DNA from: a virus
DNA: 28,343 nucleotides
Virus record (IMG/VR): IMGVR_UViG_3300030328_003198
Coordinates: 1 to 28,343 of that record
Direction: 5' to 3' (one strand)
In this document: positions 7,136 through 28,343 of the stretch, one piece after another
Position numbering within the stretch: the first letter of the stretch is position 1
Layout of the letters: each line of letters opens with the position of its first letter
Made by a program: the position numbers and the translations under genes
The notes under the pieces: model-generated
The model's input: only the letters and a program-made list of their open reading frames with translations
Databases searched by the model: none
What the model was told of the DNA's origin: nothing

Positions 7136-7152
7136 TTTAATCTTATTATATC

Positions 7153-7899: not shown

Positions 7900-7906
7900 A
7901 AGTCTC

Positions 7907-7947
7907 ATTATAGTGATAGCCACTGTAATGGTGGCTATTATTATAAT
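7907..7947 (+). terminator. Long perfect-length hairpin (17-bp stem) between two genes
   Basis: Bases 7907-7923 pair with 7931-7947 over 17 bp, including two G-U pairs, around a 7-base loop at 7924-7930. The core is ATAGCCAC/GTGGCTAT and the outer part is A/T-rich. On the + strand the stem is followed by A-rich sequence rather than a T-run, though the 3' arm itself is T-rich. It could be a terminator of unusual form, an RNA-processing or stabilising stem, or an element governing translation of the gene starting at 7960, only 12 bases beyond it. Reading the - strand, the flank (bases 7890-7906) is T-rich and looks more like a terminator tail, yet no - strand gene ends here. Confidence 0.5.
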
Positions 7948-7959
7948 AAATAAAAGGAT

Positions 7960-8664: not shown

Positions 8665-8667
8665 TAA

Positions 8668-9753
8668 ATGGGACTAATAACACAAACAGCTAAAGAATAC
8701 TACACGGTAGCAAATAATTTTACCGGTGATGGTTCTAACAAAGATTTTACTGTTACATTTGACCCATTACCGTTAATAGAAAATGATTTTATAGTATACC
8801 AAGCAGGAAATGAAATTGATGATGACCAATATACCTATGTTGCTAATACAGGTGTAATAACGTTTGCGACAGCTCCAGCTAATGGAACAGCAATACAGGT
8901 TAAATTAAGAAACATAAAACACGGTGCTTATAGATATATTGCTTTGAATGATATTGTAAATAACTTTATGGTGTCATATATTGGAGATGGTAAGATAATA
9001 AGTAATGCTAGAAAGTTAGATGTGCTTTTCCATACTAAAAGAGCAATACAAGAATTTAGTTATGATGTGTCAAGAATTGAAAAAATACAAGAAATTGAAG
9101 TAGGTACATCACTTACAGTACCTATGCCGCAGGATTACGTAAATTATACACAATTAGCATGGATAGACGGTGATGGATTAGAAAGAATAATATATCCATC
9201 AAAAATAACTTCAAGACCATCACAAGCAATACTACAAGATGATGAAGCTGAATATTTATATGATAACAATGAATCATTATTAACAGCTACATCTTTAACT
9301 ACAGAAAGATTTAAAAATGTACCAACTACAGAATTAAATGATGATTACTTTTATTCAGATAATGACAGAAATGCGATGATGGGTGAAGGTAAAAGATTTG
9401 GTATAGATCCAGAAACCACACAAATAAACGGTGTATTTATAATAGATGAAGCAAACGGTCAATTTGGTTTTAGCAGTAACCTAGCAGGAAAAGTTATAAC
9501 ATTAAAGTATGTTTCAGATGGGCTTGGTACTGATAACGAAATGCAAATACATAAATTAGCTGAAGAGGCAATATATAAATACGTAGCTCATGCAATATTA
9601 TCCGCAAAAGCAAATATTCCAGAATATATAGTAAATAGATTTAGAAGAGAAAGAAGGGCAGCGATGCGTAATGCTAAATTAAGATTATCTAACCTTAAAT
9701 TAAAAGAGCTTACTCAGGTAATGAGAGGCAAGTCTAAGCAGATTAAACACTAA
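8668..9753 (+). CDS. Putative tail ring protein with an added N-terminal beta domain
   Basis: This is probably a second ring protein of the neck or tail hub. From about residue 87 on (AYRYIALNDIVNNFMVSYIG, then IPQDYVNY-like PMPQDYVNYTQLAWIDGDGL) it resembles structural proteins that I associate with marine and crAss-like phages. It ends in a long basic helix rich in Arg and Lys (FRRERRAAMRNAKLRLSNLK, about residues 325-344). Residues about 15-82 form a separate beta module: a TGDGSNKDFTVTF start, a DFIVYQAG strand and GVITFATAPANGTAIQV. That layout is like the N-terminal virion-anchoring domain of T7-type tail fibres and looks fused onto the ring protein. The start ATG follows a double stop directly. 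Role and neighbours agree; exact family identity is inference. Confidence 0.62.
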   Translation: MGLITQTAKEYYTVANNFTGDGSNKDFTVTFDPLPLIENDFIVYQAGNEIDDDQYTYVANTGVITFATAPANGTAIQVKLRNIKHGAYRYIALNDIVNNFMVSYIGDGKIISNARKLDVLFHTKRAIQEFSYDVSRIEKIQEIEVGTSLTVPMPQDYVNYTQLAWIDGDGLERIIYPSKITSRPSQAILQDDEAEYLYDNNESLLTATSLTTERFKNVPTTELNDDYFYSDNDRNAMMGEGKRFGIDPETTQINGVFIIDEANGQFGFSSNLAGKVITLKYVSDGLGTDNEMQIHKLAEEAIYKYVAHAILSAKANIPEYIVNRFRRERRAAMRNAKLRLSNLKLKELTQVMRGKSKQIKH

Positions 9754-12700: not shown

Positions 12701-13401
12701 GGGAATTCTATAGTTTTAATTCAGGTAATCTATACCAACACCACCACCCAGGAGTAGTGAGAAATTTATTTTATGGTACACAATATAGTTCAGGTATTCA
12801 AATAATAATGAATGATGAGCCTTCTACTGTTAAAAACTTTAAAACAATATCCTATGAGGGAAGCCAAGCTAAAGTGGGTACACAAAAAGGATGGCAAGTA
12901 GATACGGTTGAAACTGATTTGCAATCTGGAAAAATAATAGAATTTAAAGATAAAGAGGGAAAATGGTTTGCAAACACATCAGGAGTAGATACTACACTTA
13001 ATAATTTAGATTCAAAAGAATTTTCAATACAAGGTTTAGGTCAGCTGAGTAGTTATGTTGCACCTTATCTACCACCTATAGTTACAACCCAGCCTACATT
13101 TAGTAATGTTGGCCAAACTTCTTTAACAGCACAAGCAAGTTTTAAAAATGAATCAGAGTTAACAGTTACTTATAAAGTTTATTTTGGTACTAATTCATCC
13201 TACGCTTCTAATACATTAACCGCGATACAAACAAGTACTAATTCTACTTTTACACCATCTTATTCACCAACTGGACTAACTTCAAACACAACTTATTATG
13301 TTACCTTTGTAGCAGATACAGGTGAATTTAGTGACGTTTTAACAAATACAGCTAACACAACAACAACTACTAATTGTAGTTTTAGTTTAGCAATAAGCTA
13401 A
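9757..13401 (+). CDS. Muzzle / tail stabilisation-type protein
   Basis: This 1214-aa protein likely closes the tail channel below the rings. The opening (KTFLRGKMNKDLDERLMPDG, then YRDAVNIQVSSTEDSDVGTA and QNIRGN) is a conserved-looking start that I associate with P22 gp10-like stabilisation or muzzle proteins of marine phages. Repeated beta blades are visible, for example TDGNRIYFSDKSRNAILRLS at about residues 888-907, suggesting a beta-propeller-like core. YQHHHPGVVRN is near residue 993. An inserted Ser/Gly/Asn-rich stretch lies at about 620-705. From about residue 1109 to 1205 there is a fibronectin III-like module (TYKVYFGTN, then GLTSNTTYYVTFVAD) and the protein ends in a Thr-rich tail. 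No enzyme motif is seen. Six bases separate it from the adhesin gene, so the two are probably co-expressed partners. An alternative is a large tail-hub or baseplate-like protein. Confidence 0.66.
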   Translation: MPEIKKTFLRGKMNKDLDERLMPDGEYRDAVNIQVSSTEDSDVGTAQNIRGNKLLKDLSTTTLFGANAKCVGKIADEENNTLYWFVKGAAKQGIIEYNTTTNITKPLVIDLTGAILNFPDNEITGIVIIDRNLAWTDNNSEPKIIDINDFVTYNTYTTLSYSATTKIGNSDITEADITVIKKKPIAAPTVAITKHTSTPSDKSLFEDKFIRFAYRWRFKNGQYSVISPFTDPVFDPDLTTGNAYDLEEGYNNRMLNYISKIRLTGFDITPSNLDSIDVLYKESNNSNIYIYKTILSTSFATAIPVDIEKESVYSVIPEKQLFRHYDNVPYKAKALEIIGNRLVFGNYIDGIDLSGYEPDFEQGNSKTEFVTRTGIPVITGTNNTDKRTIKSGRSYQLGIVFEDKYGRQSPVISNDTGLIKRAFAGAAPKKLNVKMGGNKPTDSYDASANPDGRITHFKFYIKDSTAEYYNFIAEQVYADTSNTEHAWVSIPSYEINKLKENNEIALKKAADGGVVSTISKYKILDISESKPKTISTAETVNTDGRFFIKLKKDANLTNETIAQGGIASSSLITDGDSNWVGGDSGGIFLGQYSVAGDNNIHERYRFYYNDGKIVEVVDNHAYGVDNDFEQSGGNYTVNNPCSSSAGNNWKNLNKTGSDSSGTVASVHVRNMVSGSGFNDYPYEFYVCLTSPSTPSNPNSGTGPAIFETVPEENILDIYYEISDSIAIANYNTTQSLNWYNAFDFGDGVESNRIKDDFNEDFISTQIKASTTIDSPFKEKTNKSSLIYSGLYNSRNDFNNLNQFNTGEKITKELNTEYGSIQKLHSRNTDLVAFCEDKILRILANKDALYNADGNANLVSTNNVLGQAVPYAGEYGISKDPESFATDGNRIYFSDKSRNAILRLSRDGLTVISSKGMKAYFRSLLNAQTLPVVGSFDAHSDQYIISLDNSDVDKIESVSFKEDVDGWVSRLGFVIKAGLSINGEFYSFNSGNLYQHHHPGVVRNLFYGTQYSSGIQIIMNDEPSTVKNFKTISYEGSQAKVGTQKGWQVDTVETDLQSGKIIEFKDKEGKWFANTSGVDTTLNNLDSKEFSIQGLGQLSSYVAPYLPPIVTTQPTFSNVGQTSLTAQASFKNESELTVTYKVYFGTNSSYASNTLTAIQTSTNSTFTPSYSPTGLTSNTTYYVTFVADTGEFSDVLTNTANTTTTTNCSFSLAIS

Positions 13402-13407
13402 TATCAT

Positions 13408-16400
13408 ATGGCAACATTTACTTTAACAGGAACATTCGGAGCAGACTTTAGCAATACAGATACTATTTCTCTTGCGGCTAGCGCGGGATCAGTTTCACCA
13501 GATACTACTACTAAAAGTGCTTTAGCGGCAGGATTAACTATTACAGCTAATAATAATGTAACTGTAACAGCTACATGTTCTAGTGGTAATTGTAATGGGA
13601 CTATTCAAACTATTCTTACACCTTTAGCAACTGGTATAGCTTATGATTGTAATACTAAAACATGGGCAACAGCTGCTTTTAATTGTGAAACTGGAGCTGT
13701 AACATTAACAGCAGTAGATAATACAACAACAATTTCAAATGTTTCCCCAGCAACTTTAACCACAAATAGTGGGACACAAAATGTTAGTTTTAGTTTTGTT
13801 GATAGTAATAATAGTGCGTATAGCAACGCTGGCACAACAATAAATGGATGTACAGTAGCTGTGGATACAAACGTTGCGACATCGGTTTTAATCTCTGGGC
13901 CTACTATAGGACAAGCAGGGACAAATATAACTTTAACAGCGTCGGATACCTGCATACCATCAACACCAACATATACTTGGTCAGGTAGTACTATAGATGG
14001 ACAAACTGGAACAACAAAAACATTTCATGAGGATGCTCCGGGAATATATGTTTATACAGTTTCAGCAACATATAATGGTGTTACATATTCAGATGAACAT
14101 ACAGTAGAGTTTTTAGCTGAACCAGTTGTAGATGTGGTACACGCTGGAGGTGGTAGCGGAGGCGGGACTACTGCTTATAATACAGAAACAGTAACATTAA
14201 GGGCTGATACTACGAATATAACGTCGCCAACTTATCAGTGGTATAGAAAAACAACAACACCTACAAATAGCGCGCCAGTAGTTGATCACCCAACAAATAA
14301 CAATCTTATATCAGGGCAAACAGCACAAGAGTTGCAAAGAACTGAAGCGGCAGGAACTACTGCAACATATTATTATAACTGTAGAGTAAGTGGTAATAAT
14401 TCTGTAAGCGGAAGTACTATTACACCTGTGTATGATGATAATGATTGGAGCATTGGCTGGAGTGATAGACCTTCTTTCTCTTTTTATAGATTGCCAAGTC
14501 AAACGCCAGCTCATAGTGAGGCGTGTACAACTACAGCTAATCAAGTTACTTTATATACAGATAGCTCTGTTTTAAACCAAGTAACAAAATTATATAAAAC
14601 CGCAGCAGGTAGTGTTAGTGGGTTTCCAGGAACAGGAACATATATTGCGACTTATAGTGGCGTTAAATATTATGCTCAAGTTAACTTAGGAGGCACCCCA
14701 CAGGAAGCTACAGTGCAAGGTAATTGGCTTCCATGTACTTCTTATAATATTGAAACAACAGGAAATGATGAGGGGACAAATGGGGTTATAACTGCAAATA
14801 TTACTGAAACAGTAACTTTACAATTTGTAAATCAATCTAATGCAGTAGATTCAGCTATCTCTCAATACAGTTGGACAGCTAGTGGTACTGCGGTTGGTAC
14901 TAATTCGCAAACATTAAATACAGATTCAACAAGACCAACATTAGGACCAGATGAAGAAGAACTTATAACATATGGGTGTACAGTTACATTTAACGATGGA
15001 AGACCCGATGTGTTTAAAAATATTCAAATAAAATGGCAAAACCCAGGCACTTTAAAAGTGCAAGCAGTAAAATGTGGGGGATCTACAGTAAGATATATAA
15101 GAATAAGTGGCCAAACATCATTAAATTATTCTAGCGGTGCTAATATATATGAACTTACAGCGATTAGCAGCAGCCAACTTTTAGATGGAAATGGTTGTTA
15201 TACTATAACTCAATACACAGGAAGTGAGTATAGCGCAACAGCTACAGCTATAGGGCAAAGTGGGTCAATGCAGCCTTTTGCAAATTGTGATCAGTGTAAT
15301 GGTGTAAGCGCACCTCCTCCTCCAAATGTATATTGGGGATTAAGAGAGTGTGGTACATTAAGTGAAGGATTTAGGACAAATAATACAATATCTGAAGATA
15401 CTAGTTTAAGTATAAATGAGAGAATAAAAGATGATAACACAGGTTTATATTATTTAGTTATAAATAATACCGCTACAACAGGAGCTGTAGTGAATTATTC
15501 TACAACAGGGCTTACTGGTTGTCCAGATATAGCGGAATCTAGATATTATGGTATTGAAAAATGTGATGATGGGGTACTTTATAGAACACAAGCTACAAAC
15601 GATTCTGTATCATTTAGTTTAAACCAAATTGTTGAAGGTGGGGGTACGACTTTCAGAATATTTGATGTGGATGTAGGGGTAAATGATTATACAGAATTTT
15701 CATCAGGAGTTTCAGCTTCTAATTTATCAACTTGTCCGCTGGGGACCTACACATGTAGTACACACTCAGATTGGGTAACTGTTAGTTACAACTCAGGCAC
15801 TCAAGCTGTATCAGTAGAACCTACAAGAACCACAACAACAGTCCATAGTTTTAGTCCAACAACTATTAGTCCAGGGAGCGGTAATGTTGCAATTACATTT
15901 ACATTCTCTGATAGTAATTCAGCTTATACGAATGCAAATGCACAAGTTAATTGTTCAAACGCTATTCTTTTAGATACAGGAACTGACGCTATAACTTATT
16001 ATGCAACGTTTGTTACATGTAACGAACCAACAGGTGCGGTGATTTTTGTTTCTAGTCCAAATCCTATTGATAGCACTATTGTTTTATCAGATCAAAATGA
16101 ATGTTATTCGTTTTCTAATAATAACTTAGGAAATCCAAATTCTGATTTATCAAATTATACTACATATAATTCAAAATCTACATCAGCTCTTAACTGTTCT
16201 GATTGTGCGGATGTTGTTAATCCACCACCGCCACCTGGAACTCCAACTTGTTATTCTATACTAGCAACAGCTCAAACTGTTGATCCAGCTACTGATGCTA
16301 CAGCAATGGAGAATTTATGTTCAGGAAGACAGAGAACAGTTCATATGAATGGTAACGGTTTAGCATTATCAACACAAATATATTCAGATGATAGCTGTAC

Positions 16401-16500
16401 AACACTAAGGTCAACACCTGGGTATTTTGCAAATAGTAGTCATTACTTCTATTGGAGTGGTGTTTCATTAACACTAATAGATAGTTTAGGATGTAATTAA
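13408..16500 (+). CDS. Large cysteine-rich modular adhesin / receptor-binding candidate
   Basis: This 1030-aa protein is rich in Thr, Ser, Asn and Cys and built of beta modules. Ig/PKD-like segments are at about residues 186-230 (YTWSGS, then IYVYTVSATYNGVTYSDEH) and 270-340 (YQWYRK, then ATYYYNCRV). A module with a leading Cys repeats: C556 (VQAVKCGG), C648 (YWGLREC), C719 (YYGIEKC) and C871 (FVTCNEP). Two of these end in a CxxC followed by a proline linker (C627/C630 and C930/C933). A stretch of about 49 residues occurs twice (106-154 and 809-857). There is no signal peptide, so it is a virion protein, not secreted. Position after the muzzle-type gene and the modular build fit host-surface binding. 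The target receptor is unknown. It may also be a decoration fibre rather than the main receptor binder. Confidence 0.68.
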   Translation: MATFTLTGTFGADFSNTDTISLAASAGSVSPDTTTKSALAAGLTITANNNVTVTATCSSGNCNGTIQTILTPLATGIAYDCNTKTWATAAFNCETGAVTLTAVDNTTTISNVSPATLTTNSGTQNVSFSFVDSNNSAYSNAGTTINGCTVAVDTNVATSVLISGPTIGQAGTNITLTASDTCIPSTPTYTWSGSTIDGQTGTTKTFHEDAPGIYVYTVSATYNGVTYSDEHTVEFLAEPVVDVVHAGGGSGGGTTAYNTETVTLRADTTNITSPTYQWYRKTTTPTNSAPVVDHPTNNNLISGQTAQELQRTEAAGTTATYYYNCRVSGNNSVSGSTITPVYDDNDWSIGWSDRPSFSFYRLPSQTPAHSEACTTTANQVTLYTDSSVLNQVTKLYKTAAGSVSGFPGTGTYIATYSGVKYYAQVNLGGTPQEATVQGNWLPCTSYNIETTGNDEGTNGVITANITETVTLQFVNQSNAVDSAISQYSWTASGTAVGTNSQTLNTDSTRPTLGPDEEELITYGCTVTFNDGRPDVFKNIQIKWQNPGTLKVQAVKCGGSTVRYIRISGQTSLNYSSGANIYELTAISSSQLLDGNGCYTITQYTGSEYSATATAIGQSGSMQPFANCDQCNGVSAPPPPNVYWGLRECGTLSEGFRTNNTISEDTSLSINERIKDDNTGLYYLVINNTATTGAVVNYSTTGLTGCPDIAESRYYGIEKCDDGVLYRTQATNDSVSFSLNQIVEGGGTTFRIFDVDVGVNDYTEFSSGVSASNLSTCPLGTYTCSTHSDWVTVSYNSGTQAVSVEPTRTTTTVHSFSPTTISPGSGNVAITFTFSDSNSAYTNANAQVNCSNAILLDTGTDAITYYATFVTCNEPTGAVIFVSSPNPIDSTIVLSDQNECYSFSNNNLGNPNSDLSNYTTYNSKSTSALNCSDCADVVNPPPPPGTPTCYSILATAQTVDPATDATAMENLCSGRQRTVHMNGNGLALSTQIYSDDSCTTLRSTPGYFANSSHYFYWSGVSLTLIDSLGCN

Positions 16501-16519
16501 TCCACGTAATAATATAAAT

Positions 16520-16855
16520 ATGAGCCAAATAACACTAAACATAGACGTAAAAAGAAACACATCTCTGCAAGTCGGGGATGTTATATACTATTTAGGTACA
16601 GACGGCACAACTAAAAAAAGAATAGGGTCTTTAGTTTCTAAAACAAATTCGACTATAGTTTGTGAAATAGACCCATCTCCTGTAGGAGACATATCACAAT
16701 TAGCTAGCAATAGCTATATATTTTTTGCAAAAGACAATATAATAAATACATCAGGATTGTTGGGATATTTTGCAGAAATAAACTTTTCCAACGATTCAAC
16801 AGATCATGCGGAATTATTCGCAGTTAACTCAGAAATTTTTATAAGTAGTAATTAA
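16520..16855 (+). CDS. Small conserved virion-type protein, function unknown
   Basis: This is a 111-aa beta-rich protein. The first part (QVGDVIYYLG, then TIVCEID) looks like a small barrel strand pattern. The second half (YIFFAKDNIINTSGLLGYFA, then HAELFAVNSEIF) resembles the C-terminal signature of small hypothetical proteins I associate with marine cyanophages and related phages near tail genes. No catalytic motif, signal peptide or membrane segment is seen. It sits between the adhesin and the internal-protein genes; only one base separates its stop from the next ATG, so translation is probably coupled. It may be a neck or tail accessory protein, but the sequence alone does not show what it does. 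Confidence 0.72.
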   Translation: MSQITLNIDVKRNTSLQVGDVIYYLGTDGTTKKRIGSLVSKTNSTIVCEIDPSPVGDISQLASNSYIFFAKDNIINTSGLLGYFAEINFSNDSTDHAELFAVNSEIFISSN

Positions 16856-16856
16856 A

Positions 16857-17564
16857 ATGGTAGAATATACAACAATAATAGTAGAAGCAGCAGATACACT
16901 GCAGTACGGATTTTTAGCTGGACTAGGAATGAAAATGTTACCTTCTTTAATAGGTGGTGTAGGTAGTTTATTTGGTGGTAAAAAAAGAAAAGATGAATTT
17001 GCGGGTGCGAAAAGCGCTTATGATGATGCCAAAAGGTCTTATAAAGATTTTAAGTTTGAGAATTTATATTCAAATTTAGAAAATCCATTTGAGGATTTAA
17101 GAGTATCCACTGAGGCAGCTGAATTTCAATCTCAACAAGTGCAGCAAGGTTTAGCACAATCACTTGACGCTTTAAGAGGAGCAGGTGGGGGTACAGGTGC
17201 GGCTGCAGTTGCACAAGCAATGGCACAACAACAATCAAAAACACAACAGCAAATAGCAGCTGATATTTCAAAGCAAGAAACAGCTAACGAGAGATTAGCG
17301 GCACAAGGACAATTCCAAATGCAATCACAAGAAGCAAAAGCTGGTATGGATATTCAAGGTAAAGAATTTGATAGAGAAAGTACTATATTTGGTATGGAAC
17401 AACAAAACTACGCAGCAGCGATGGAGCAAAAAGCTAAACAACAAGCGGCTGGGGGAAAAGGAATAGGAGCTTTAATAGGTACTATAGGTGGCGGATTGCT
17501 TGGAATGGATGAAAATACAAATTTCATGGGTAGTTTAAAAAATATGTTCACAGGTCCCAGTTAA
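16857..17564 (+). CDS. Putative internal virion (ejection) protein, T7 gp14-like
   Basis: This 235-aa protein has the make-up of small ejection proteins that leave the capsid first and help to span the cell envelope. There is a hydrophobic Gly-rich segment near the N-terminus (about residues 18-44, FLAGLGMKMLPSLIGGVGSL within it), a long Gln/Ala-rich helical middle (about 80-200) including a Gly patch (RGAGGGTGAAAV), and a second Gly-zipper-like hydrophobic segment near the C-terminus (GIGALIGTIGGGLLG, about 203-217). No signal peptide cleavage site is evident. It precedes a 422-aa protein and the 2489-aa giant, an order reminiscent of T7 genes 14-15-16. Function is inferred from composition and order. 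An alternative is a holin-like or pilot protein. Confidence 0.58.
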   Translation: MVEYTTIIVEAADTLQYGFLAGLGMKMLPSLIGGVGSLFGGKKRKDEFAGAKSAYDDAKRSYKDFKFENLYSNLENPFEDLRVSTEAAEFQSQQVQQGLAQSLDALRGAGGGTGAAAVAQAMAQQQSKTQQQIAADISKQETANERLAAQGQFQMQSQEAKAGMDIQGKEFDRESTIFGMEQQNYAAAMEQKAKQQAAGGKGIGALIGTIGGGLLGMDENTNFMGSLKNMFTGPS

Positions 17565-17575: not shown

Positions 17576-18844
17576 ATGGCAGCAGATAAAGCATTAATAG
17601 CAGGCGCGGCAAAAGTCGCAGGCGCAAAAGCAAATTTAGATTACTCGATAACGAAAGCAGCTACTGAGTTGGGTAGTGACATAGAAGAAGTTATTCAGCT
17701 TAATCTTAAAAACTTACAAGAAACAGATAAAGCGAATACAGACTTTCAAAACGAGCAATACGCGAGTGTAGCGAGTTCTGTACCAAATACCGATGATTTA
17801 AATGATACCCCTTTTTCAGGTGTAGTACAAACCACAGTAGATTCATATGTAAGCCAAGGGAATGCTTTTGCTGCAATTGCTCGTGCTGGTGGGCAAACAT
17901 TTGATCATAGAGTATTAAATGACCCTATTTTAAAAGGTAAAAGAAAAGATATGGGTACAGCTATAGCGGCAGCTAATCATGAAAATGATTATATTACAGA
18001 AAGTAGAAAAAATTATTTAAAAAATTCCAAAGGAAGGCATATTGATCCAACTAGCGGTGATTCTATATTAGCTACTTCTATTTATAATAGTGAATTTGAA
18101 TGGAAAAAAAATGAAGAAACCGGGAAATATGTATATATAGTAAACAGCAAAGAGTATTCTATAGCAGATGCAAGGGCGGCAATGGATAAGGTTAGCTCGC
18201 CTGATATTTCAAAAAGTATTTTTACTAGTGCCCAAAATAATACAAAAAATGCTTTTAAAGGTGCGACTAACAACGCACAAGCAGAACAAACAATAAAAGA
18301 CTTTAAAAGAAATCTAGACCCAATAATTGAAGTAAGTGGAGATGTTAATCAAGATAATTTAAGAAATGCTGAAATGTTTTATATAGGGCAAAACCCAGGG
18401 GTTTCAGTGGGAGCGTTAAGAAAACACAAGAATTTTATTACAAATGAGAAGTATGATGAAAAAAAATACGCTGAGTTTCTATCAAGGGAGATAGACAACT
18501 TTCTTAATAATCAAAAAAATCAACATTACACACCACCTGAAGTAGTAGAAGAAGATGTGCCAGAAGGAGATACTCCACATTTTATTGCCCAAGTAGCTAT
18601 GCTTGATAAAATAACAAGCAAATTCAATAAGTACCGAGTGGGTGAAAAACCTGGAATAGATTATTACTTATCACAAGAATTTCAAGAAATGTTACCAGAA
18701 GCGTTCTCATATTTTAAACATAAAGGTAAAGTACAAATTCAAGCTAAAGGAGGAGCTAAAACAGAACACACAATAGACCCTTCAATGAGTTTGGAATACA
18801 ATATGAATATGTTAAAACCTATGTTATTATCTAAGAAAAAATAA
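17576..18844 (+). CDS. Putative second internal virion protein
   Basis: I do not recognise this 422-aa protein by family. It is mostly helical and soluble. The N-terminus is Ala/Lys-rich (ALIAGAAKVAGAKANLDY), with charged helices to about residue 70, then mixed segments. Near residues 275-310 there is a unit NPGVSVGALRKHKNFITNEK followed by a helix ending FLNNQKN. An acidic linker (VVEEDVPEGDTP) lies at about 323-334, and it ends in a Lys tail. There is no signal peptide, membrane segment or catalytic motif. Its place between the gp14-like gene and the giant gene suggests a partner in the ejected protein set, comparable in position to T7 gp15, though it is shorter. The next gene starts two bases after its stop, suggesting coupled translation. 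Confidence 0.66.
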   Translation: MAADKALIAGAAKVAGAKANLDYSITKAATELGSDIEEVIQLNLKNLQETDKANTDFQNEQYASVASSVPNTDDLNDTPFSGVVQTTVDSYVSQGNAFAAIARAGGQTFDHRVLNDPILKGKRKDMGTAIAAANHENDYITESRKNYLKNSKGRHIDPTSGDSILATSIYNSEFEWKKNEETGKYVYIVNSKEYSIADARAAMDKVSSPDISKSIFTSAQNNTKNAFKGATNNAQAEQTIKDFKRNLDPIIEVSGDVNQDNLRNAEMFYIGQNPGVSVGALRKHKNFITNEKYDEKKYAEFLSREIDNFLNNQKNQHYTPPEVVEEDVPEGDTPHFIAQVAMLDKITSKFNKYRVGEKPGIDYYLSQEFQEMLPEAFSYFKHKGKVQIQAKGGAKTEHTIDPSMSLEYNMNMLKPMLLSKKK

Positions 18845-18846
18845 TT

Positions 18847-21800
18847 ATGAAATACCAATTTAATTTAGGTAACGACGAACTTGTTACTATAGAAAAAAAC
18901 GAATTACAAGAATTCACCGCTAATAATCCCAATGCAAAATTTGATGATTTTGTTAATGAAGATGATGCGGGAAATACAGACCCTTCACCGGAGAAAAAGG
19001 ATGCACCTGTGGAGGAAAACAAAATAGCATCCGATACGGAATCCACATCGGTAGATGGTTCTTCGGGTTCCATAGAAAATCAAACTGAAAATAACTGTCC
19101 AGATGGACAAGTAAAAGGAGCTGATGGGGAATGTTATGACCCAAAAGCAGAGAATACAAATGAAATTGCTGAATTTAATCCAGATAAACTTAATTATTTA
19201 CCTAAGGACGAAATAATAAAAATTGCTAAACCAAAAGCTAATGCTGCTTTATATAAAAATTACCACGATGCAGTAGAAGTAAACGATGAAGAGATTAAGG
19301 AAATGTGGTATAGGAAATATTTTGGATTAGATGAAATAGATAAAAGAAGGAACCAAGATCTAGTAAAAATAGTATCAATGCCTTCTCATAGTTCTGGCTA
19401 TGGTGCACAACCTGTTACTGAAGCTTTACCTTATAGCTCACAAGAAGTTAGAAATTTAATACCTCTTAGTAAAATAGAAGATTATGATAAATGGCTAAAA
19501 GGAGAATTGAAAATTTCCCCGTTAGACATGTTCGCAACAGAGAAACTGTTAAAAGAGGACAAAGCAGATGACTTTTTTAAAAAATTATCTCCAAAAGAAA
19601 GAGCAAATCTTGAAAATATATTATCTGATAAAAACTTACAAATAGATAGTTTAAAAGAAGTTTTAGATATAAAATCAAATGAGGTTGACGAATTAGTTAA
19701 ACAATCAGAGAAAGAGTTGGGACCTATTGAAAACCGAATGGTGGAGATAAACAATAGATTAGAAAGAATTTATGATATTTATTCTGGAAGTATAGTAACT
19801 CCCCCTTCTGACGAAACAGTTAAAGAATTTAATACTTTAAAGACAGAATACGAAATGTTAGCTTCTCAAAGACGAGAAATAATAGGAAATTATACCACTG
19901 AATTTGAGGGCTATAATAAAACTTTAGAGGACTACCGAATAAACGCTGCTGATTATACTGGTAATATAGCTGGTTTAGAAAGCGCTAAGAAAAATTACAA
20001 TATATTATCTCAATTTGGACATCAATTAGACAAACAGGTTATAGCCTCTGGGTATACGCTGCTTGGTAAGTTTGGACCAGAAATTGAAAAAAATAGTTTT
20101 AATTATAATTTAAAGGCAAGTGAAGAAATAGAAAATTTCCCGAGGAGATTGAAAGTAGAAGAAGTAAAAGATGCTAATACATTTGGTAGATTTGTCGTTG
20201 AAACTTTAACAGACCATGGTTTGTCAATGGTCGCTGCAATGATCCCGTATTTTGGTAAAATTTTAAAAGGCGGTAAGTATTTAAATACTGCTAGGTGGAC
20301 TAGTTTAGGTCTCTTTGGGGTTTCATCTGGTGGAGCTCAAATGTTTGATATGGAAAAAAGAGATTTTGATATATCTGAAAGACTAAAACAAATTGATACA
20401 GCTTTAGATAAAGAGGGTATTAGTAGAGAGGAATATTCGCAGTTGACCCTAGAAAAAAACGAACTAGAAAATATTATTCCGTATACTGAATTTCAAAAAA
20501 TTATTTTACCAGTTTTTAAGGCTGGATCAGAAATACTTACTGAAAGACTAGGTTCAATGCGTTTTGTTGAAAGTTTAGCTGGTATGGGTAAAGTGTTGGA
20601 TGCAATGGATGTTGAGAAAGCAATATGGCATGCTTTAAAACAAATACCAACAGGTGTAGTTATTGAAGAGGGTGAAGAGATAGTTAACTTAGCGCTTGGA
20701 AACATAGCTGAGAATTTGGTTTTAAGAGAGGGGCAAGGGCACCCTTTAAAAAGTGTGTTTGATGGGGTTACCCCTGATATGTTAGCGAAAACTGCTGTAA
20801 CCGCATTGGTTATAGGTGGCCCGGGACACTATAATAACATTAAAGGTATTGTTAAAAGGCAGTTGATGACCAATGCTGAAAGAAAAAAATTAAATGATAA
20901 AGCTGAAGAGTATATTCAATTGATGGAGGACCATGAAAATAAAAATATAGATAGAAAGGAATTTAATGAAAAAAGAAGGGAGCTATTAAAAGATATGGAT
21001 TTAGATCAAATGGTTAGTTTAAATAAACTTAATCACCTTTCAATTGATGACTTAAAAGAATTAGGGCTGATAAATTTAGAAATTTCAAACTTATTAAAAA
21101 GAACAGCAACGGGAGCTGGTAATACAAGAACATCATCTGAATATAGAGACAGACAATTTGATAAAAATAAAGAGGAGTATGAAAGACTTATTGAAAGAAG
21201 AGAAGCTCTTTTAGGTAAAGCTTATAATCCTGAAGGTAAAGAATTTACCCCTGATCAAGCTTTTATATATGGTCTATATCAAATGTCAATAGATATAGCA
21301 GAATCTAAAGTACCAAAAAATGGGCAATTGATTGTTCTTGATGAAAAAAGTAGAGAAGAAGCAATTGAAAAAATGCTACAAAATGCTAAAGAAGGCGGTC
21401 CTAAGGTGCCCAAATGGGTGCTTGATGGGATTAGGACAAATAATGCTTTCCAATTTAATAATAATATTTATGTAAATCACGATTTAATTTTAGCGAGCAT
21501 ATTAAGTGCTAGAAGTAATAAAGATATGAATGCATTATTTGCAGCTGTTTCCCCGGTCCATGAATTATTCCATATAAAAATTGGGGCTGATAAAATAATC
21601 ATAAACAATAAACTACAAGGAGATTTAAAATATGCAGCAAGAGGTTTAAAGACTACACTAAGGGAAAAATATGAAAGCGGTAGAATAACAAATAAAGAAG
21701 CTTATGATGCCATATTAGCAAGATTGGATTCTTATAGTAAAAGAAAAGGAAAAGGTGGGAAACTAGATATAGAGGAATATTTTACAACAATATTTGATGC

Positions 21801-24800
21801 GTATACTTTGGGCTTGATTACTGATTCTGATATTGATTTAGATTATGCTATGAAAACTATTGTTGAAAAAGCTTTATCAATAATGCACCCGAATTCAAAT
21901 ATATTTGGAAGAATAAATACTACTAGAGATGCTTTCAATTATATAAAATCTTTTAATAAACAAGCTTTAACATCTAAAGCAAATATTTTAGGGAAAGAAG
22001 AAGATGATAAACAAGAGATTAAATTTTCCGAAAATATATTAGGTTTATATGATCAATATGGTAAAGATCATGTAGCTATGATAGAGGAGGGTAGTAAACT
22101 AAATAAAGACGGTGAGTTTGTTGAAGATATAACTAAATCAGAATTTGGTCAATCTATTGGGGGGTTAGTGCAAAAAATAACAAAAGACTTATTTGACCCA
22201 ACCCTTCCTGATAATACAAAAGTTATTGATCCTATTAGATCTAAAGCTAGGGCGATATTTCAAACTGAAGTTACACAAGACGCGGCTATGATGATTTTAA
22301 ACGAGTATAAGCCAGAATTAGGTTCTATTGGTCAATTTACCACTTCAAGACTTTATAAAAGAGTACAAAATAAATTAAGGAAAATGGGTGTTATGCCTTC
22401 TGAAGATGAGGGGGGATTAGGTATGGCTACTGAAGCAACTGACGCTACGTTAAAAGATCAAAAACAAACTGAGCAGCAAGAGGATAAAATTACCGACCCT
22501 AAGGATGAAATTAAATTAAAAAGGCTAGATACTAGAATAAGTTTTAAAAGAAAAAAACCTAAAAAAGTTAAAGATGAAGACGGAAATGAAAAAACAATAC
22601 TAGTAGATGAGTTTACTCCGATGAATGAAATTGAAATACCCGGTGAAACTGTTACTGAAATAATTGATGGAAAAAAGATAACAAGGCCTAAAACTCTTTC
22701 TGATAAAGTATTAGAAGCTGTAATTAAAACTTTTCAAACTACGTTGCCTAAAGTAAATGAAAAGGAGTTTAGAGCAAAATTCGATCAAGCAAACCAAGCT
22801 GAAATAATACCCTTGCTACAAGAAGAATTTGCTGTAGTAAAAGACAAGGACAAGAACAGGGTTGATAAATTTAGATTGTTTTTACAGGAAAAAAAGAATT
22901 TTGAAGGTATATTAGGTAAACTTCCGCAAAGTGTAATAAACAAAAGATTTAAAACTTTAGGTAAAAAAACAGGTAGAGAAACCTTAGGTGCTGGTAAAGG
23001 AATATTTGAAAAATTAAATGTAACACAAAAAGAATTTATAGAGTATTTCTCAGGAAGAGATTTAGCTTCTAATGTAAGAAGTGATAGAAAAAAATCACTG
23101 ATAATAGCGCTTGCAAATGAATTAGCTTTTGATGCTACTCTTGATGCTATTTCTGATCCTAATGTTATTAAAAAATTAGGAATACAAGGAGTTATTGTTA
23201 ATAACGCATGGACTGATGACCTTCTAAAAACAATTGAACGCGGTGAGTTAGATATAGATAATTTGGAAAAAAGTAATGAAGCAGCGGGTATTAAATTTAG
23301 TAATTTCTTAGGAGAATTAAATAATCAAGGGCTAGATCTTAACTATGCTTATGATTTTGTTGAAACATTTAAAGCTGATAGAGGTAAGGCGGGGGATAAA
23401 AATATGGAATTGTATCAATCACTTTTAGATGATGAAAATATTGCTATAAAATGGAAAGCATTTGAAACAGAAGTATTAAATAATTTAACAGCCGCATCGG
23501 CTAAAATACCTGGTTTAAAAGTGGTGTCTACAGAAGTTGCTGCAAATAATAATAATTTTATTGACATGCAATTAGTAGCTAATGGTAATAAAATAGGTAT
23601 TGAAGTAAAATTAAATGCTAGGGCTAGGATCGGCACTGCGGCTAGAATTTATCAAGATAAAGATGGGAATTTAGTAATTAAATCTCCCGAAGGTATTAAT
23701 TTAGAGGGGCTATTAGATTCAAATAATCCTCAAATTGTTGAATTTAAAAAATTATTTCAAGAGTGGTTAGATATAGCTAGTGAAAGCGAAGATAAAAAAA
23801 TACAAATGAATGAAGGCAGAAATGGCTTAACTACAATTCCATTATCACCAAAAACTAGTGCTGCGTTAAAAAAATCAGGATTACAAGCTAAAATAGGAAG
23901 AACTTATGTGGAAATTCCAATACAGATTGTTTTAGATTATTATATAAATAAAGATAAAAAAGGTTACCTTGGAGAATATATTATGCTAAATAATAAATTG
24001 TATTCTTTAGGTAACGATCCTTTAAATACTAACGCTCCTAAATTAGATTCTAATGTAACTGTAAATATTAGATTAAGAGGAGACGCAATTGAGCCTGATA
24101 GACATAAACCAGAAAATGAAAGATTAAAAACTTATAGGATTTCTGCCGAAGTAAGACTAAAAGATAAAAACGGTAAATGGAATGTAAATGATAGTAATAT
24201 TGAATTAAACACGCCTAAAGATTATGTAAACACTTTTTCTAATATAAAATTTAGTAAGAATTTAGAAGATGAAATGCACGGAATGATTGGAAGGACAAAA
24301 GGTATAGATGTTGGGAAAATGTTTTCAGAACCACAAGCAAGAAGATTAGGTAAAAAAGCGGAAAGAATCAGGTTGTTTGTCCCAAATACAGCAGAGGATC
24401 TATTAGGGTTAACATATAGATTTCTTGGTAAAGGTAAACAAGGCGATAAAGATATACAATTCTTTAAAAAGAATTTGTTTACACCATTGACGGAAGCTAA
24501 TATAAAATTTGAAGCAGAACAAGTTATAGCGGAAAGATATTTAAAAGAAGCGAAAGATATAATAGAGGAACAAGGAATAGATTTAACAGAAGAGGCTTTA
24601 GAGGGCTACACTAACGATCATGTTATAAGAATTTTTATGTGGAATCGTAGGGGCTTTAAAGTTCCAGGATTAGACCCTGACAATAAAGAAAATGAGCCTG
24701 GACCTGAGCAAGCTAAAATGGTAAGATATGCAAGACAAAACTATGATATTCTAGCAATAGCAGATGCAATAGAAGCGGCTTACCCTGATTCTCAATATGG

Positions 24801-26316
24801 TAAACCTAGTAAAAGAGGCTGGGTATCAGGAACAATTACAACTGATTTATTAGAACATACTAACGAATTCACTAGACAAAAAATTTATAAAAAGTTTTTT
24901 AATAATGTTCAAGGTATGTTTGGTAAATTTGATACGAGCACAGGTAGGTTAACGGGCCCAATTGCTAATAAAATTAGGGCTATGTATGGTAATACTTTTA
25001 TGAAAGCGTTAGAAAGCTCAATGTATAGGATATACACTGGTAGAAACAGAGCTTATACTTTAGATCCTCAGGGTGGTATAATGTTAGACTGGATGAATAA
25101 TGCTATTGGTAACATTATGTTTATTAACTCTAGATCTGCTGTATTACAGACTATTTCGCATATGAACTTTACAAATTGGTCAGATAACAACCCTTTAGAA
25201 ATAGGGAAAAGGTGGGCTGACCATAAACAATTTACAGAAGATTTTAAAATGATTTTCTTTTCTGATTATTTAAAAGCCAGAAGAGGAGGTTTAAGGACAG
25301 ATGTTCAAGAACAAGAAATTGCAGAAGCAGCTAAAAATTCTAAAAATGATATTAGGTCAATGATAGCTGTAGTTCTTAAAAAAGGTTTTATGCCTACTCA
25401 GTATGCTGATAGTTTTGCTATTGCTTTGGGTGGCGCATCATTTTATAGAAATAGATATAACACATATATTCAAAAAGGCATGTCAAAGAAAAAGGCTCAA
25501 GAAAAAGCTTTTGCTGAAATGCGTGAAATAGCCGAGGATACTCAACAGTCTGGTAGACCTGAAAAAATATCTATGGAACAAGCTGGTTTAGGTGGTAGAC
25601 TTATATTAGCTTTTCAAAATACACCTATGCAGTATAATAGATTAATGAAAAGGGCTATACAAGATTTATATAATGGAAGAGGTGATTTTAAAACAAATCT
25701 TTCTAAAATAATTTATTATGGTGGTATGCAAAATGCTTTATTTTATGCACTACAACAAGGTTTATTTGCTGTAATATTTGATGAGCCAGAAACAACAGAA
25801 GAAGAAGAAAAAGAAAAAAATAGATATTATAGATGGTTAAATGGTATGTCTGATTCAATATTGAGGGGTTCTGGAATATTTGGTGCCGTAGTATCTACAG
25901 GTAAAAACACATTGTTAAAAGTTTTAGAAAGAGAAGGGTTTGATGAAAAAGCAATTGAAGAAATAGCTAATCTTTCCCCACCGCTTGGAAAGAAAACAAG
26001 ACAATTGTTTGATATAAGAGATAAATTCCAATATAAACAAAATAAAGAAAAAATAAAAGAACTAGGTTTAGACACAAGAAACCCAGCTATATTAGCAGCG
26101 GCTGATGCAATATCATTTGGTATTAATTTACCAACAGATAGAGCTTTGAAAAAAATGAATAACTTAAGAACAGCAATGGAAAAAGAAACTGAAATGTGGC
26201 AAAGAATAGCTTTAGTATTAGGTTGGAGTAATTGGGAGCTAAATATAGAAGATGATACAAATTCTCCTTTTAAGGGAGGATTTAAAGGAGGATTTAAAGA
26301 ACCAAAATTTAAATAA
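18847..26316 (+). CDS. Giant multi-domain (polyvalent-type) internal virion protein with peptidase-like and nuclease-like motifs
   Basis: This 2489-aa protein fills over a quarter of the window. Seen in order: an acidic N-terminus with a short Cys motif (C84-x11-C96); charged helices; hydrophobic patches near residues 460-475 and 648-660; HELFH at 905-909 with a downstream Glu pair (E976/E977 in DIEEYFTTIF), as in gluzincin-type metallopeptidases; a PD-(D/E)xK-like core D1573-x12-E1586-V-K1588, preceded by a helix (AFETEVLNNL); then a long helical C-terminal region with QTISHMNFTNWSDNNP and FQNTPMQYNRLMKRAIQDLY, plus a hydrophobic segment at about 2291-2310. IKFS recurs at 1058, 1482 and 1800, near apparent domain borders. 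Polyvalent proteins of this type are known to be injected with phage DNA; that role is inferred here from size, position after ejection-type genes and the enzyme motifs. Activity of either motif is unproven. The gene ends in a short GGFK repeat. Confidence 0.8.
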   Translation: MKYQFNLGNDELVTIEKNELQEFTANNPNAKFDDFVNEDDAGNTDPSPEKKDAPVEENKIASDTESTSVDGSSGSIENQTENNCPDGQVKGADGECYDPKAENTNEIAEFNPDKLNYLPKDEIIKIAKPKANAALYKNYHDAVEVNDEEIKEMWYRKYFGLDEIDKRRNQDLVKIVSMPSHSSGYGAQPVTEALPYSSQEVRNLIPLSKIEDYDKWLKGELKISPLDMFATEKLLKEDKADDFFKKLSPKERANLENILSDKNLQIDSLKEVLDIKSNEVDELVKQSEKELGPIENRMVEINNRLERIYDIYSGSIVTPPSDETVKEFNTLKTEYEMLASQRREIIGNYTTEFEGYNKTLEDYRINAADYTGNIAGLESAKKNYNILSQFGHQLDKQVIASGYTLLGKFGPEIEKNSFNYNLKASEEIENFPRRLKVEEVKDANTFGRFVVETLTDHGLSMVAAMIPYFGKILKGGKYLNTARWTSLGLFGVSSGGAQMFDMEKRDFDISERLKQIDTALDKEGISREEYSQLTLEKNELENIIPYTEFQKIILPVFKAGSEILTERLGSMRFVESLAGMGKVLDAMDVEKAIWHALKQIPTGVVIEEGEEIVNLALGNIAENLVLREGQGHPLKSVFDGVTPDMLAKTAVTALVIGGPGHYNNIKGIVKRQLMTNAERKKLNDKAEEYIQLMEDHENKNIDRKEFNEKRRELLKDMDLDQMVSLNKLNHLSIDDLKELGLINLEISNLLKRTATGAGNTRTSSEYRDRQFDKNKEEYERLIERREALLGKAYNPEGKEFTPDQAFIYGLYQMSIDIAESKVPKNGQLIVLDEKSREEAIEKMLQNAKEGGPKVPKWVLDGIRTNNAFQFNNNIYVNHDLILASILSARSNKDMNALFAAVSPVHELFHIKIGADKIIINNKLQGDLKYAARGLKTTLREKYESGRITNKEAYDAILARLDSYSKRKGKGGKLDIEEYFTTIFDAYTLGLITDSDIDLDYAMKTIVEKALSIMHPNSNIFGRINTTRDAFNYIKSFNKQALTSKANILGKEEDDKQEIKFSENILGLYDQYGKDHVAMIEEGSKLNKDGEFVEDITKSEFGQSIGGLVQKITKDLFDPTLPDNTKVIDPIRSKARAIFQTEVTQDAAMMILNEYKPELGSIGQFTTSRLYKRVQNKLRKMGVMPSEDEGGLGMATEATDATLKDQKQTEQQEDKITDPKDEIKLKRLDTRISFKRKKPKKVKDEDGNEKTILVDEFTPMNEIEIPGETVTEIIDGKKITRPKTLSDKVLEAVIKTFQTTLPKVNEKEFRAKFDQANQAEIIPLLQEEFAVVKDKDKNRVDKFRLFLQEKKNFEGILGKLPQSVINKRFKTLGKKTGRETLGAGKGIFEKLNVTQKEFIEYFSGRDLASNVRSDRKKSLIIALANELAFDATLDAISDPNVIKKLGIQGVIVNNAWTDDLLKTIERGELDIDNLEKSNEAAGIKFSNFLGELNNQGLDLNYAYDFVETFKADRGKAGDKNMELYQSLLDDENIAIKWKAFETEVLNNLTAASAKIPGLKVVSTEVAANNNNFIDMQLVANGNKIGIEVKLNARARIGTAARIYQDKDGNLVIKSPEGINLEGLLDSNNPQIVEFKKLFQEWLDIASESEDKKIQMNEGRNGLTTIPLSPKTSAALKKSGLQAKIGRTYVEIPIQIVLDYYINKDKKGYLGEYIMLNNKLYSLGNDPLNTNAPKLDSNVTVNIRLRGDAIEPDRHKPENERLKTYRISAEVRLKDKNGKWNVNDSNIELNTPKDYVNTFSNIKFSKNLEDEMHGMIGRTKGIDVGKMFSEPQARRLGKKAERIRLFVPNTAEDLLGLTYRFLGKGKQGDKDIQFFKKNLFTPLTEANIKFEAEQVIAERYLKEAKDIIEEQGIDLTEEALEGYTNDHVIRIFMWNRRGFKVPGLDPDNKENEPGPEQAKMVRYARQNYDILAIADAIEAAYPDSQYGKPSKRGWVSGTITTDLLEHTNEFTRQKIYKKFFNNVQGMFGKFDTSTGRLTGPIANKIRAMYGNTFMKALESSMYRIYTGRNRAYTLDPQGGIMLDWMNNAIGNIMFINSRSAVLQTISHMNFTNWSDNNPLEIGKRWADHKQFTEDFKMIFFSDYLKARRGGLRTDVQEQEIAEAAKNSKNDIRSMIAVVLKKGFMPTQYADSFAIALGGASFYRNRYNTYIQKGMSKKKAQEKAFAEMREIAEDTQQSGRPEKISMEQAGLGGRLILAFQNTPMQYNRLMKRAIQDLYNGRGDFKTNLSKIIYYGGMQNALFYALQQGLFAVIFDEPETTEEEEKEKNRYYRWLNGMSDSILRGSGIFGAVVSTGKNTLLKVLEREGFDEKAIEEIANLSPPLGKKTRQLFDIRDKFQYKQNKEKIKELGLDTRNPAILAAADAISFGINLPTDRALKKMNNLRTAMEKETEMWQRIALVLGWSNWELNIEDDTNSPFKGGFKGGFKEPKFK
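26264..26304 (+). repeat. Short direct/inverted repeat forming the C-terminus of the giant protein
   Basis: Twelve-base units TTTAAGGGAGGA (26269-26280) and TTTAAAGGAGGA (26281-26292), then a partial copy from 26293, encode FKGGFKGGFKEP. The first unit also forms a small palindrome with the bases before it (CTCCTTT with AAGGGAG, 26264-26278). Read on the - strand it gives the pattern AATCCTCCTTTAAATCCTCC, which resembles short palindromic repeats scattered in many bacterial genomes. It may be such an element inserted at the gene end, or a simple slippage repeat. Confidence 0.6.
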
Positions 26317-26324: not shown

Positions 26325-26786
26325 ATGGAAAGAATTAGTGAACATATATCATATAAAGAAGGTATTAAATCAAATACAGCAACAAGGTTGGATATTGATA
26401 ATTCCCCTAGTGAATATCATTTAGGTAACATGAGCGGTATTGCTATACATATATTTGAACCTTTAAGAAAATGGGTGGGAGGCCCTATAAAAATAAACTC
26501 TTTTTACAGGTCAGTTGAGTTGAATAAAGCTATTGGTGGTAGTGCGAAATCGCAACACTGTGAAGGTAGAGCAATAGACATTGACGATACTTTTGGACAT
26601 AAAACTAATGCTGAAATGTTTGAATATATAAGAAGTAATTTAAACTTTGATCAAATGATATGGGAATTCGGTACAAATGATAATCCAGACTGGGTGCACG
26701 TGAGTTTCGTATCTAATGAGCAAAATAGGAATAGATGTTTAAAAGCTAAAAAAGTAAATGGAAAGACAAAATATAGTGTTATATAA
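26325..26786 (+). CDS. M15-family peptidase, probable endolysin
   Basis: This 153-aa zinc peptidase should cut peptide cross-links in host peptidoglycan at lysis. The M15 signature H-x2-G-x-A-x-D is present as H78-C-E-G81-R-A83-I-D85, and the third zinc ligand is H125 in PDWVHVSF. E114 (MIWEFG) lies between them. The region before the motif (INSFYRSVELNKAIGGSAKS) matches the family's substrate-loop pattern (YRS...N...GG...S.H). The length equals one catalytic domain with no separate wall-binding domain and no signal peptide, so a holin or other release step is needed; none is obvious in the window. The start ATG has an AATAAT leader. The AGGAGG sequences upstream are about 35 bases away and belong to the giant gene's repeat, too far to act as its ribosome site. 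Its 3' end overlaps the lipoprotein gene. Confidence 0.88.
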   Translation: MERISEHISYKEGIKSNTATRLDIDNSPSEYHLGNMSGIAIHIFEPLRKWVGGPIKINSFYRSVELNKAIGGSAKSQHCEGRAIDIDDTFGHKTNAEMFEYIRSNLNFDQMIWEFGTNDNPDWVHVSFVSNEQNRNRCLKAKKVNGKTKYSVI

Positions 26787-27000
26787 AACATTATTAGTTT
26801 TATTTTTTTTAACATTCACATCTTGTTATAGTATAAAATCTACTATTGTAAATAAGTTAGATAAGACTTGGCCTTTTAGTACTATAAAATACAAAGGGAA
26901 CCAAAAATTAGATTCCCTTCATATTTATAAACAAAACAAAACTAGCCATCGCAACTTAAGCAATCTGGATTCATTGCCTCCGCCGCAATATCGCCTCTAA
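26758..27000 (+). CDS. Small lipoprotein, candidate outer-membrane spanin
   Basis: This 80-aa protein has a lipoprotein-type signal: a Lys, a hydrophobic stretch (LLVLFFLTF) and then TSC with the lipid-carrying Cys at residue 23. Starting at the in-frame GTG seven codons in would give an even more typical signal (LYKTLLVLFFLTFTSC). The mature part is short, polar and ends with a proline run (SLPPPQYRL). It overlaps the end of the peptidase gene by 29 bases in another frame. Position beside an endolysin plus a small Pro-containing lipoprotein is the pattern of o-spanins (Rz1-like), which fuse the outer membrane at lysis. No inner-membrane partner is visible, so this role is inferred. Its last 59 bases overlap the 3' end of the opposite-strand reductase gene, and that part may be poorly constrained. 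Confidence 0.62.
   Translation: MERQNIVLYKTLLVLFFLTFTSCYSIKSTIVNKLDKTWPFSTIKYKGNQKLDSLHIYKQNKTSHRNLSNLDSLPPPQYRL
26894..26919 (-). terminator. Hairpin usable as terminator for the reductase gene, inside the lipoprotein gene
   Basis: AAGGGAA (26894-26900) pairs with TTCCCTT (26913-26919), 7 bp around a 12-base loop. Read on the - strand, the stem is followed by TGTATTTTATAG, a T-rich tail, and it lies 23 bases past the reductase stop codon (26942). On the + strand it falls inside the lipoprotein coding region and is followed by only a short T-stretch, so + strand termination there would truncate that mRNA. I assign it to the - strand. The stem is modest in length. Confidence 0.5.
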
Positions 27001-28343
27001 GAACACTTTCTGTTCTCATATAATATAAAGTTTTAACCCCTCTTTTCCAAGCTTCTATGTGGACTTTATTAATCCATCTAGGTTCTGCTTGTGAAGGGAA
27101 CGCAAGATTTAAACTAACAGACTGATCTATATATGTCTGTCTTATCCCCGCTTGATTAACTAATTCTAGTTGATTTATTTCCTTAAACGTTTTGAAAACA
27201 TTTTTAACTGGCTCACCGCTCTTTTCCTGAGTAAGCTTGCCATTATTATCGTAATAATAACCATCTAATTCTTTTATTCCTTGTATTGATCCTTTATCTT
27301 TTAGAACTCTATCCCAAATTTTTTGGTTGTTTATATTTAATTTCTTAAATACCTTTTCGAGCTCTCTATTCTTTCTTATAAATGTACCTTTAGCAGATTG
27401 CTCTGTGAATACATTAGCAGCCCAAGGTTCAACACCGGGTGATACATTACCTGATAATTTACTATTTGATACTGTTGGTGCAACTGCTCTTAAATGTGTA
27501 TTTCTCATTCCTGTACCTATACACCATAATGGTTCACCATAAACATCGGCTAAATCTCTACTAGCCCTTTCGGTTTCTAATTTTAAGTTTGAAAATATTT
27601 CTCTTGTTTTAAATTGAGCTAATAACCCTTCAAAAGCAATTCCTTGTTGTTGTAATAAAGTATGCCAACCTAAAACACCTAATCCTAATGCTCTTCCTTT
27701 TTCTGCAGACCTAACAGCATTATCAAAACCTTTCATATTTTTAGCACGTTGTATGAATTCAGATAATACACCATCTAAAAACCAAGTAGCATCATATATT
27801 AAATCACTATTTTTCCATTCATCATATTTAGCTAAGTTAACAGAAGATAAACAACATACAAAAGAATGAGATTCATCTGTATGTAGCGTAATTTCAGAAC
27901 ATATATTAGTCATGTGAACTTTTAAACTGTTAGCTTTATAAGCTTTAGGGTTAGCTTTATTTGTGTTACCTTTAAACATTATATAAGGTTCACCAGTAGC
28001 TTTTCTTTTCTGTAATAATTTACTCCATTTTTTCCTAGCTTCTGGCTGCCCTTCTTCTAGTCTTCTCATAAACTTATCACCAACTATAGCGCATTGATGT
28101 AAATTTAATGATTGTCTGTTTACATCACCTTTAGGTTCTCTAATTTCAAGCCAATCTAAAAAGTCAGGGTGATCAATGTTTATATTAACTGATGCAGCGC
28201 CTCTTCTTACTGAGCCTTGATTTGTAGCTAGTATAGTTGAATCATATATTTTACAAAAAGGCACGACACCATCTGATGTTCCATTACCAGCTATTTGCGC
28301 ACCCGCTGGCCTGATCATATTAACACCAATACCAACACCCCCG
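26942..28343 (-). CDS. nrdA: Class I ribonucleotide reductase large subunit, 5'-truncated
   Basis: Ribonucleotide reductase makes deoxynucleotides for phage DNA synthesis. This is the C-terminal two-thirds or so; the frame is open to the window edge and begins GGVGIGVN before RPAGA. Landmarks include GSVRRGAASVNINIDHPDFL; the active-site N-x-C-x-E as NICSE, with the radical-bearing Cys codon at 27899-27901; C-C in SFVCCLSSVNLA, matching the second redox Cys of the catalytic pair; TLYYMRT, the Tyr-Tyr pair of the radical transfer path; and a C-terminal CLSC, the swinging thiol pair recharged by thioredoxin or glutaredoxin. The first catalytic Cys would lie outside the window. No intein or intron is seen. 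It points opposite to all other genes, so it belongs to a separate (probably early or middle) transcript, and its 3' end overlaps the lipoprotein gene. The small subunit gene is not in the window. Confidence 0.95.
   Translation of the reverse strand, partial: GGVGIGVNMIRPAGAQIAGNGTSDGVVPFCKIYDSTILATNQGSVRRGAASVNINIDHPDFLDWLEIREPKGDVNRQSLNLHQCAIVGDKFMRRLEEGQPEARKKWSKLLQKRKATGEPYIMFKGNTNKANPKAYKANSLKVHMTNICSEITLHTDESHSFVCCLSSVNLAKYDEWKNSDLIYDATWFLDGVLSEFIQRAKNMKGFDNAVRSAEKGRALGLGVLGWHTLLQQQGIAFEGLLAQFKTREIFSNLKLETERASRDLADVYGEPLWCIGTGMRNTHLRAVAPTVSNSKLSGNVSPGVEPWAANVFTEQSAKGTFIRKNRELEKVFKKLNINNQKIWDRVLKDKGSIQGIKELDGYYYDNNGKLTQEKSGEPVKNVFKTFKEINQLELVNQAGIRQTYIDQSVSLNLAFPSQAEPRWINKVHIEAWKRGVKTLYYMRTESVLRGDIAAEAMNPDCLSCDG

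Follow-up and report, generated by a model that had tools for sequence, protein, structure and literature searches.

We analysed a window of 28,343 nucleotides (nt) of viral DNA, positions 1 to 28,343 of the IMG/VR record IMGVR_UViG_3300030328_003198 (30.6 kb), and we focus on one gene in it that encodes a giant protein of 2489 amino acids (aa). The gene occupies positions 18847–26316 (plus strand, as do all features of the window described below unless stated otherwise), begins with ATG, runs as a single open frame, as the initial annotation of this DNA had stated, and is the last gene of an ejection-type trio. From the N- to the C-terminus, the protein comprises an N-terminal domain, a zincin-like domain, a probable sigma-70 region-2-like domain, a domain that we call 'mid', a PD-(D/E)xK nuclease-like domain and an all-helical C-terminal domain. 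The whole protein gave no match by tblastn in 50,697 phage records and none in a direct scan of viral contigs; its family was reached by way of the neighbouring muzzle gene and then of the giant's own C-terminal domain. With the C-terminal 680 aa, homologs were found in at least 571 IMG/VR contigs and, besides these, in five contigs of metagenome-assembled genomes (MAGs), which are probably misbinned phage; contigs binned to Woesearchaeota and Maricaulis MAGs (L181, L182, L183 and L184) encode a phage giant of this family and are probably misbinned viral contigs. Complete giants range from 1391 to 3353 aa, and their C-terminal domain is conserved while the remaining sequence is strongly variable. 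Because the 80 loci in our giant set include near-copies, the locus counts given below are not independent. We found no description of this family in the open-access literature.

How firmly can catalytic domains be assigned in so divergent a protein? The region of about aa 799–1045 (21241–21981) is a zincin-like domain with predicted peptidase activity, an assignment drawn from invariant residues, a profile comparison and a structural model. The motif HELFH lies at aa 905–909 (21559–21573) and a Glu pair at aa 976–977 (21772–21777), where the initial annotation had placed them. HExxH occurs once in the giant, as it does in about 2% of composition shuffles. Across a 46-row alignment of relatives, in which identity to the window sequence is 11–52%, H905, E906, H909 and E977 are the sole invariant columns, so that the combination by which zincins are recognised, HExxH with a conserved downstream Glu or His ligand, is present. 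The E977 column, which was not used for selection, is invariant in 86 of the 86 giants that bear HExxH. Only half of the Glu pair therefore stands: E976 is merely E or D in most relatives, which leaves E977 as the candidate third zinc ligand. HExxH falls within the first 1500 residues in 72 of 76 complete giants, compared with 0.2% of shuffles, and the zincin-like domain is thus a trait of the family. Its profile aligned with Peptidase_M78 at P 2.3e-5 (best of 22 control pieces, 0.09). Over aa 795–965, the AlphaFold model has a predicted local distance difference test score (pLDDT) mostly of about 80–92; a second structural aligner paired the model with the zincin domain of a solved toxin at a Z score of only 3.8. 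In the giants of two related phages, that of MW202828 (L002, 741–12320), with HEFGH twice, and elemoE gp18 (L003, 18852–29936), with HEIFH, zincin-like HExxH domains were seen at other positions; neither giant has the C-terminal domain of the window's protein.

The second catalytic assignment, aa 1524–1640 (23416–23766), is a PD-(D/E)xK nuclease-like domain, its activity being predicted. D1573 (23563–23565) and E1586-V-K1588 (23602–23610) were confirmed in the translation. On the window alone, the motif on which the initial annotation had relied is weak, as the pattern D-x(8-20)-ExK was seen 15 times in the giant against 18 expected; because it is no rarer than chance, relatives were needed to decide, and they upheld it. 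This region is common to 13 giants, with identities to the window of 12–28%, and in their alignment the only four invariant columns are E1540 (the helix Glu of the nuclease core, 23464–23466), D1573, E1586 and K1588, which together form the conserved E-D-(D/E)xK core of such nucleases. The nuclease profile matched Mrr_cat proteins taken from genomes at P 3.6e-4, with the catalytic residues in register (best of 23 controls, 0.031). The domain thus resembles the Mrr_cat restriction endonucleases (PF04471) in its E-D-(E/Q)xK core, but the relation is remote, with a pairwise profile probability of 37% and no Pfam nuclease match in the giant. In the AlphaFold model, at low confidence, a helix (1532–1551) carrying E1540 precedes a hairpin (1574–1585) that has D1573 at one end and ExK at the other and would thereby set the two opposite each other. 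The co-occurrence of the two domains in one phage protein, proposed earlier from motifs, is accordingly borne out by residues invariant in relatives; structure prediction, suggested at that time as a check, was fairly confident for the zincin region and poor for the nuclease region. As a query, the nuclease region alone retrieved nothing from viral contigs, and Foldseek with an 881-residue model returned no useful match; the fold matches reported here for the zincin-like and sigma-like domains come from the second aligner. Searches of Pfam, PHROGs and PDB sequences with alignments of the zincin, nuclease, C-terminal and EH (see below) regions gave no accepted family.

Between these two domains, the giant of the window probably contains a sigma-70 region-2-like domain (aa 1091–1209, 22117–22473), which in the window itself is recognised by modelled fold only. 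For aa 1071–1183, every one of the top matches of the second aligner was region 2 of a sigma factor (Z 6.3 over 86 aligned residues at 2.9 Å, a modest score for a helical domain). At the same position in 51 relatives, the region aligned with Sigma70_r2 in hhalign at P 4.1e-6 (best control, 0.097). When 177,635 PDB sequences were searched with a profile built from 25 of those relatives, the two top hits were sigma factors, with E values of 3.9e-4 and 3.8e-3. It is followed by the 'mid' domain (aa 1274–1473, 22666–23265), which is present in 49 giants.

We noted that the nuclease-like domain occupies a slot, between the 'mid' and C-terminal domains, whose content differs among giants. The slot holds the nuclease in 13 giants and in 59 an unrelated segment, here termed the EH module, and in none does it hold both. 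A chance value computed for this mutual exclusion takes no account of relatedness among the giants and was set aside. The EH module (for example L111, 8374–8883, and 58 other giants) has an invariant Glu-His pair within the consensus H.HR.GA...EHAxP...NYKLIAL; it matches no known family and is a candidate new enzyme. In one further giant (L164, 6208–9003), the segment immediately preceding the C-terminal domain is a zeta-toxin/AAA_33-like kinase (E 7e-13), and the slots of three more show weaker matches to LPD23 and DUF2608. When the nuclease label is mapped onto a tree of 84 C-terminal domains, at least seven changes are required even if only well-supported branches are counted, and well-supported sister pairs differ in payload (L172/L132 and L103/L104); the payloads have therefore been exchanged between phages. 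That several swaps took place is certain; how many is not, since the tree was built by a quick method and the branch of the window is long. This combination of a conserved delivery scaffold and a single slot in which unrelated effectors replace one another, which the initial annotation had missed together with the probable sigma-like domain, is the strongest new fact of our analysis, and it suggests that the giant serves to deliver a weapon that phages exchange with one another. In two loci (L165 and L026), two genes encode the giant, with the break near the slot. We considered absence of the zincin as a rule for such split giants and dropped it: HEFLH is present in the first half of L165, and the motif is missing from several giants that are not split.

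Two shared domains lie within the long helical stretches that the initial annotation had noted towards either end of the protein. The C-terminal domain (aa 1800–2477, 24244–26277) is all-helical and strongly conserved, being 36–45% identical across relatives, and its 700-residue model has a pLDDT of 79 and a predicted template modelling score of 0.79. Its fold matches are predicted viral proteins, four at 32–39% identity followed by dozens at 9–17%, and several of them are named polyvalent, ART-PolyVal, MuF or nuclease proteins. Because its C-terminal fold matches annotated polyvalent proteins, the giant can be tied to the class of polyvalent proteins that Iyer and colleagues described. The N-terminal domain (aa 395–780, 20029–21186) is shared with phi38:1 gp101 (Pervagoviridae) and phi13:2 gp127 (Pachyviridae), as found by blastp (E about 1e-5) and by an iterated profile; both proteins lie at the same gene position and are annotated as virion structural proteins. 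Unlike the window's giant, both are without HExxH, and the nuclease and the conserved C-terminal domain were not detected in them. A two-cysteine motif, CPDGQVKGADGEC, lies in the low-complexity N-terminal part (aa 84–96, 19096–19134) and holds the giant's only cysteines; similar motifs were seen in L168 and L174.

The neighbouring genes place the giant in a virion module with the order terminase, portal, scaffold-like, capsid, connectors (these five at 1–9753), a muzzle-like tail protein with a crassvirus muzzle C-terminal domain (9757–13401), a large immunoglobulin (Ig)-like protein, the small, medium and giant genes, and an endolysin. The giant gene was present in the virion module of every relative whose module was read, and in the window it sits among virion and packaging genes, a setting in which genes of polyvalent proteins are found, the other being conjugation genes. 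The medium gene (422 aa, 17576–18844) lies directly upstream. A medium open reading frame (ORF; median 488 aa) lies directly 5′ of the giant in 75 loci, with a gap of −11 to 53 nt, and is conserved in position and size only, not in sequence. A small ORF (median 237 aa) is found in 65 of these 75 loci, and in all 65 it matches the small protein of the window (235 aa, 16857–17564), which has weak similarity to phi38:1 gp99; the small-protein alignment is too variable for searching. Adjacent small, medium and giant genes are characteristic of podovirus ejection proteins. Relatives of the terminase and portal are found in Elemovirus, Pervagoviridae, Pachyviridae, Maribacter phage Panino and the uncultured MW202828; the source is a marine podovirus related to the first three of these, and the suspected origin from a Bacteroidota phage fits, in that the nearest named relatives infect Flavobacteriia. 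Upstream of the trio, PHROG 18548 and PHROG 38031 match the end of the muzzle gene with their first part and a 111-aa ORF at 16520 with their last part (9757–16855), as if the 1030-aa Ig-like gene (13408–16500) had been inserted into the muzzle tail; several relatives have one single ORF of 2600–3300 aa in this region. Downstream of the giant gene, a partial ribonucleotide-reductase-like ORF (26942–28343, minus strand) was seen by eye to converge on the virion module and to overlap a small lipoprotein-like ORF (26758–27000).

How does this protein compare with known systems? Like the polyvalent proteins (Iyer et al. 2017, PMC5512222), it joins at least two domains of unrelated activity in one chain, here zincin-like and PD-(D/E)xK-like, and shares with them a zincin-like hub, a virion neighbourhood and the C-terminal fold. 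The relation proposed in the initial annotation is supported by that fold and by a match to LPD23 in one relative (L170), below the cut-off at E 2.5e-4; a Pfam scan of the window's giant gave no match to an LPD, MPTase-PolyVal or nuclease model. Unlike the polyvalent proteins, the giant has a PD-(D/E)xK nuclease, and it has it in a fixed slot that other giants fill with the EH module, for which Pfam has no model; a nuclease of this kind in a swap slot is new for the class. In its row of small, medium and giant genes, the locus also resembles T7 gp14/gp15/gp16 and DEV gp73/gp72/gp71, for which a channel has been proposed whose giant member extends into the cytoplasm (PMC10925440). There is no detectable sequence homology to these proteins, and the window's giant has a zincin and a nuclease where DEV gp71 has an RNA polymerase.

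From the architecture, invariant catalytic residues, slot exchange and synteny computed here, we consider it likely that the giant is an ejected protein of the polyvalent type, in which the delivery part is constant and the effector in the slot can be swapped, and a member of a three-gene ejection set. The 235-aa, 422-aa and 2489-aa proteins would then work like T7 gp14-gp15-gp16 or DEV gp73-gp72-gp71. The giant would be packed in the head and leave it before or with the DNA, its N-terminal and large helical C-terminal domains serving packaging and passage through the envelope. After entry, the zincin-like peptidase would most likely cut the giant itself (or a host protein), in keeping with the proposal that polyvalent-protein zincins process their own chain or attack host proteins (PMC5512222), and the sigma-like domain may engage host RNA polymerase. 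The effector in the slot, here the Mrr-like nuclease, would most likely attack host DNA, a resident element or a rival phage; in other lineages, the cargo would be the EH module, a kinase or other domains. Several observations weigh against this interpretation. Neither by sequence nor, convincingly, by fold does the C-terminal domain match T7 gp15/gp16 or another ejection protein of solved structure, its scores against the PhiM1 ejectosome (Z 3.8) and T7 gp15-gp16 (Z 2.4) being within noise. The 'structural protein' labels of the relatives are mostly annotation by similarity and not virion proteomics of this lineage. The nuclease part of the AlphaFold model has a pLDDT of about 40–75, and fold searches with it returned no nuclease. 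By sequence, the sigma-like region of the window's giant does not match sigma factors (P 0.57), which is why that domain is called only probable. Finally, some giants without HExxH (L036, L129 and L169) are single chains, so that cleavage is not essential everywhere.

Could the two catalytic domains instead act during assembly, the zincin maturing the head or trimming the giant and the nuclease-like domain binding or trimming the ends of the packaged DNA? The location of the giant gene among virion genes is compatible with such a role, P1 DdrB is processed before packaging, and the region of the N4 virion RNA polymerase that bears the MPTase domain is required for encapsidation (PMC5512222). 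We nevertheless regard this explanation as unlikely: on a conserved C-terminal domain, the slot content has repeatedly been replaced by unrelated modules, a zeta-toxin-like kinase among them, and this is more in keeping with an antagonist that changes than with a constant step of assembly. Large internal proteins of phages can retain folds without activity, and the giant might accordingly be a purely structural internal protein whose zincin and PD-(D/E)xK folds are inactive scaffolds; that catalytic residues are the sole invariant columns amid very diverged sequences speaks against this and makes it improbable in our judgement. Least probable of all is an RNA polymerase-like giant of the N4 or crassvirus virion type, diverged beyond recognition. 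The layout of the trio and the MPTase domain recall the N4 enzyme, the muzzle is crassvirus-like and the sigma-like domain hints at transcription, but no RNA polymerase family match recurred in 17 giants scanned against Pfam and PHROGs at relaxed thresholds (sequence libraries only).

An ejected, polyvalent-type giant with an exchangeable effector thus remains the reading that we favour, and we tentatively speculate beyond it. The protein may be a polymorphic-toxin-like giant of abundant uncultured marine phages, in which the constant ends effect delivery, the zincin frees the cargo, the sigma-like domain captures RNA polymerase, and the slot, filled by nucleases, the EH enzyme or kinases, is a site of arms-race exchange. 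Because giants without a zincin and split giants exist in nature, the old question of why such giants carry zincins can now be tested. Proteins injected by phages are the earliest agents of infection, and they are poorly known beyond a few model phages. With a fixed slot and interchangeable effectors across hundreds of contigs, enzymes that target the host or counter its defences should be findable by position, and the EH module may be one of them.
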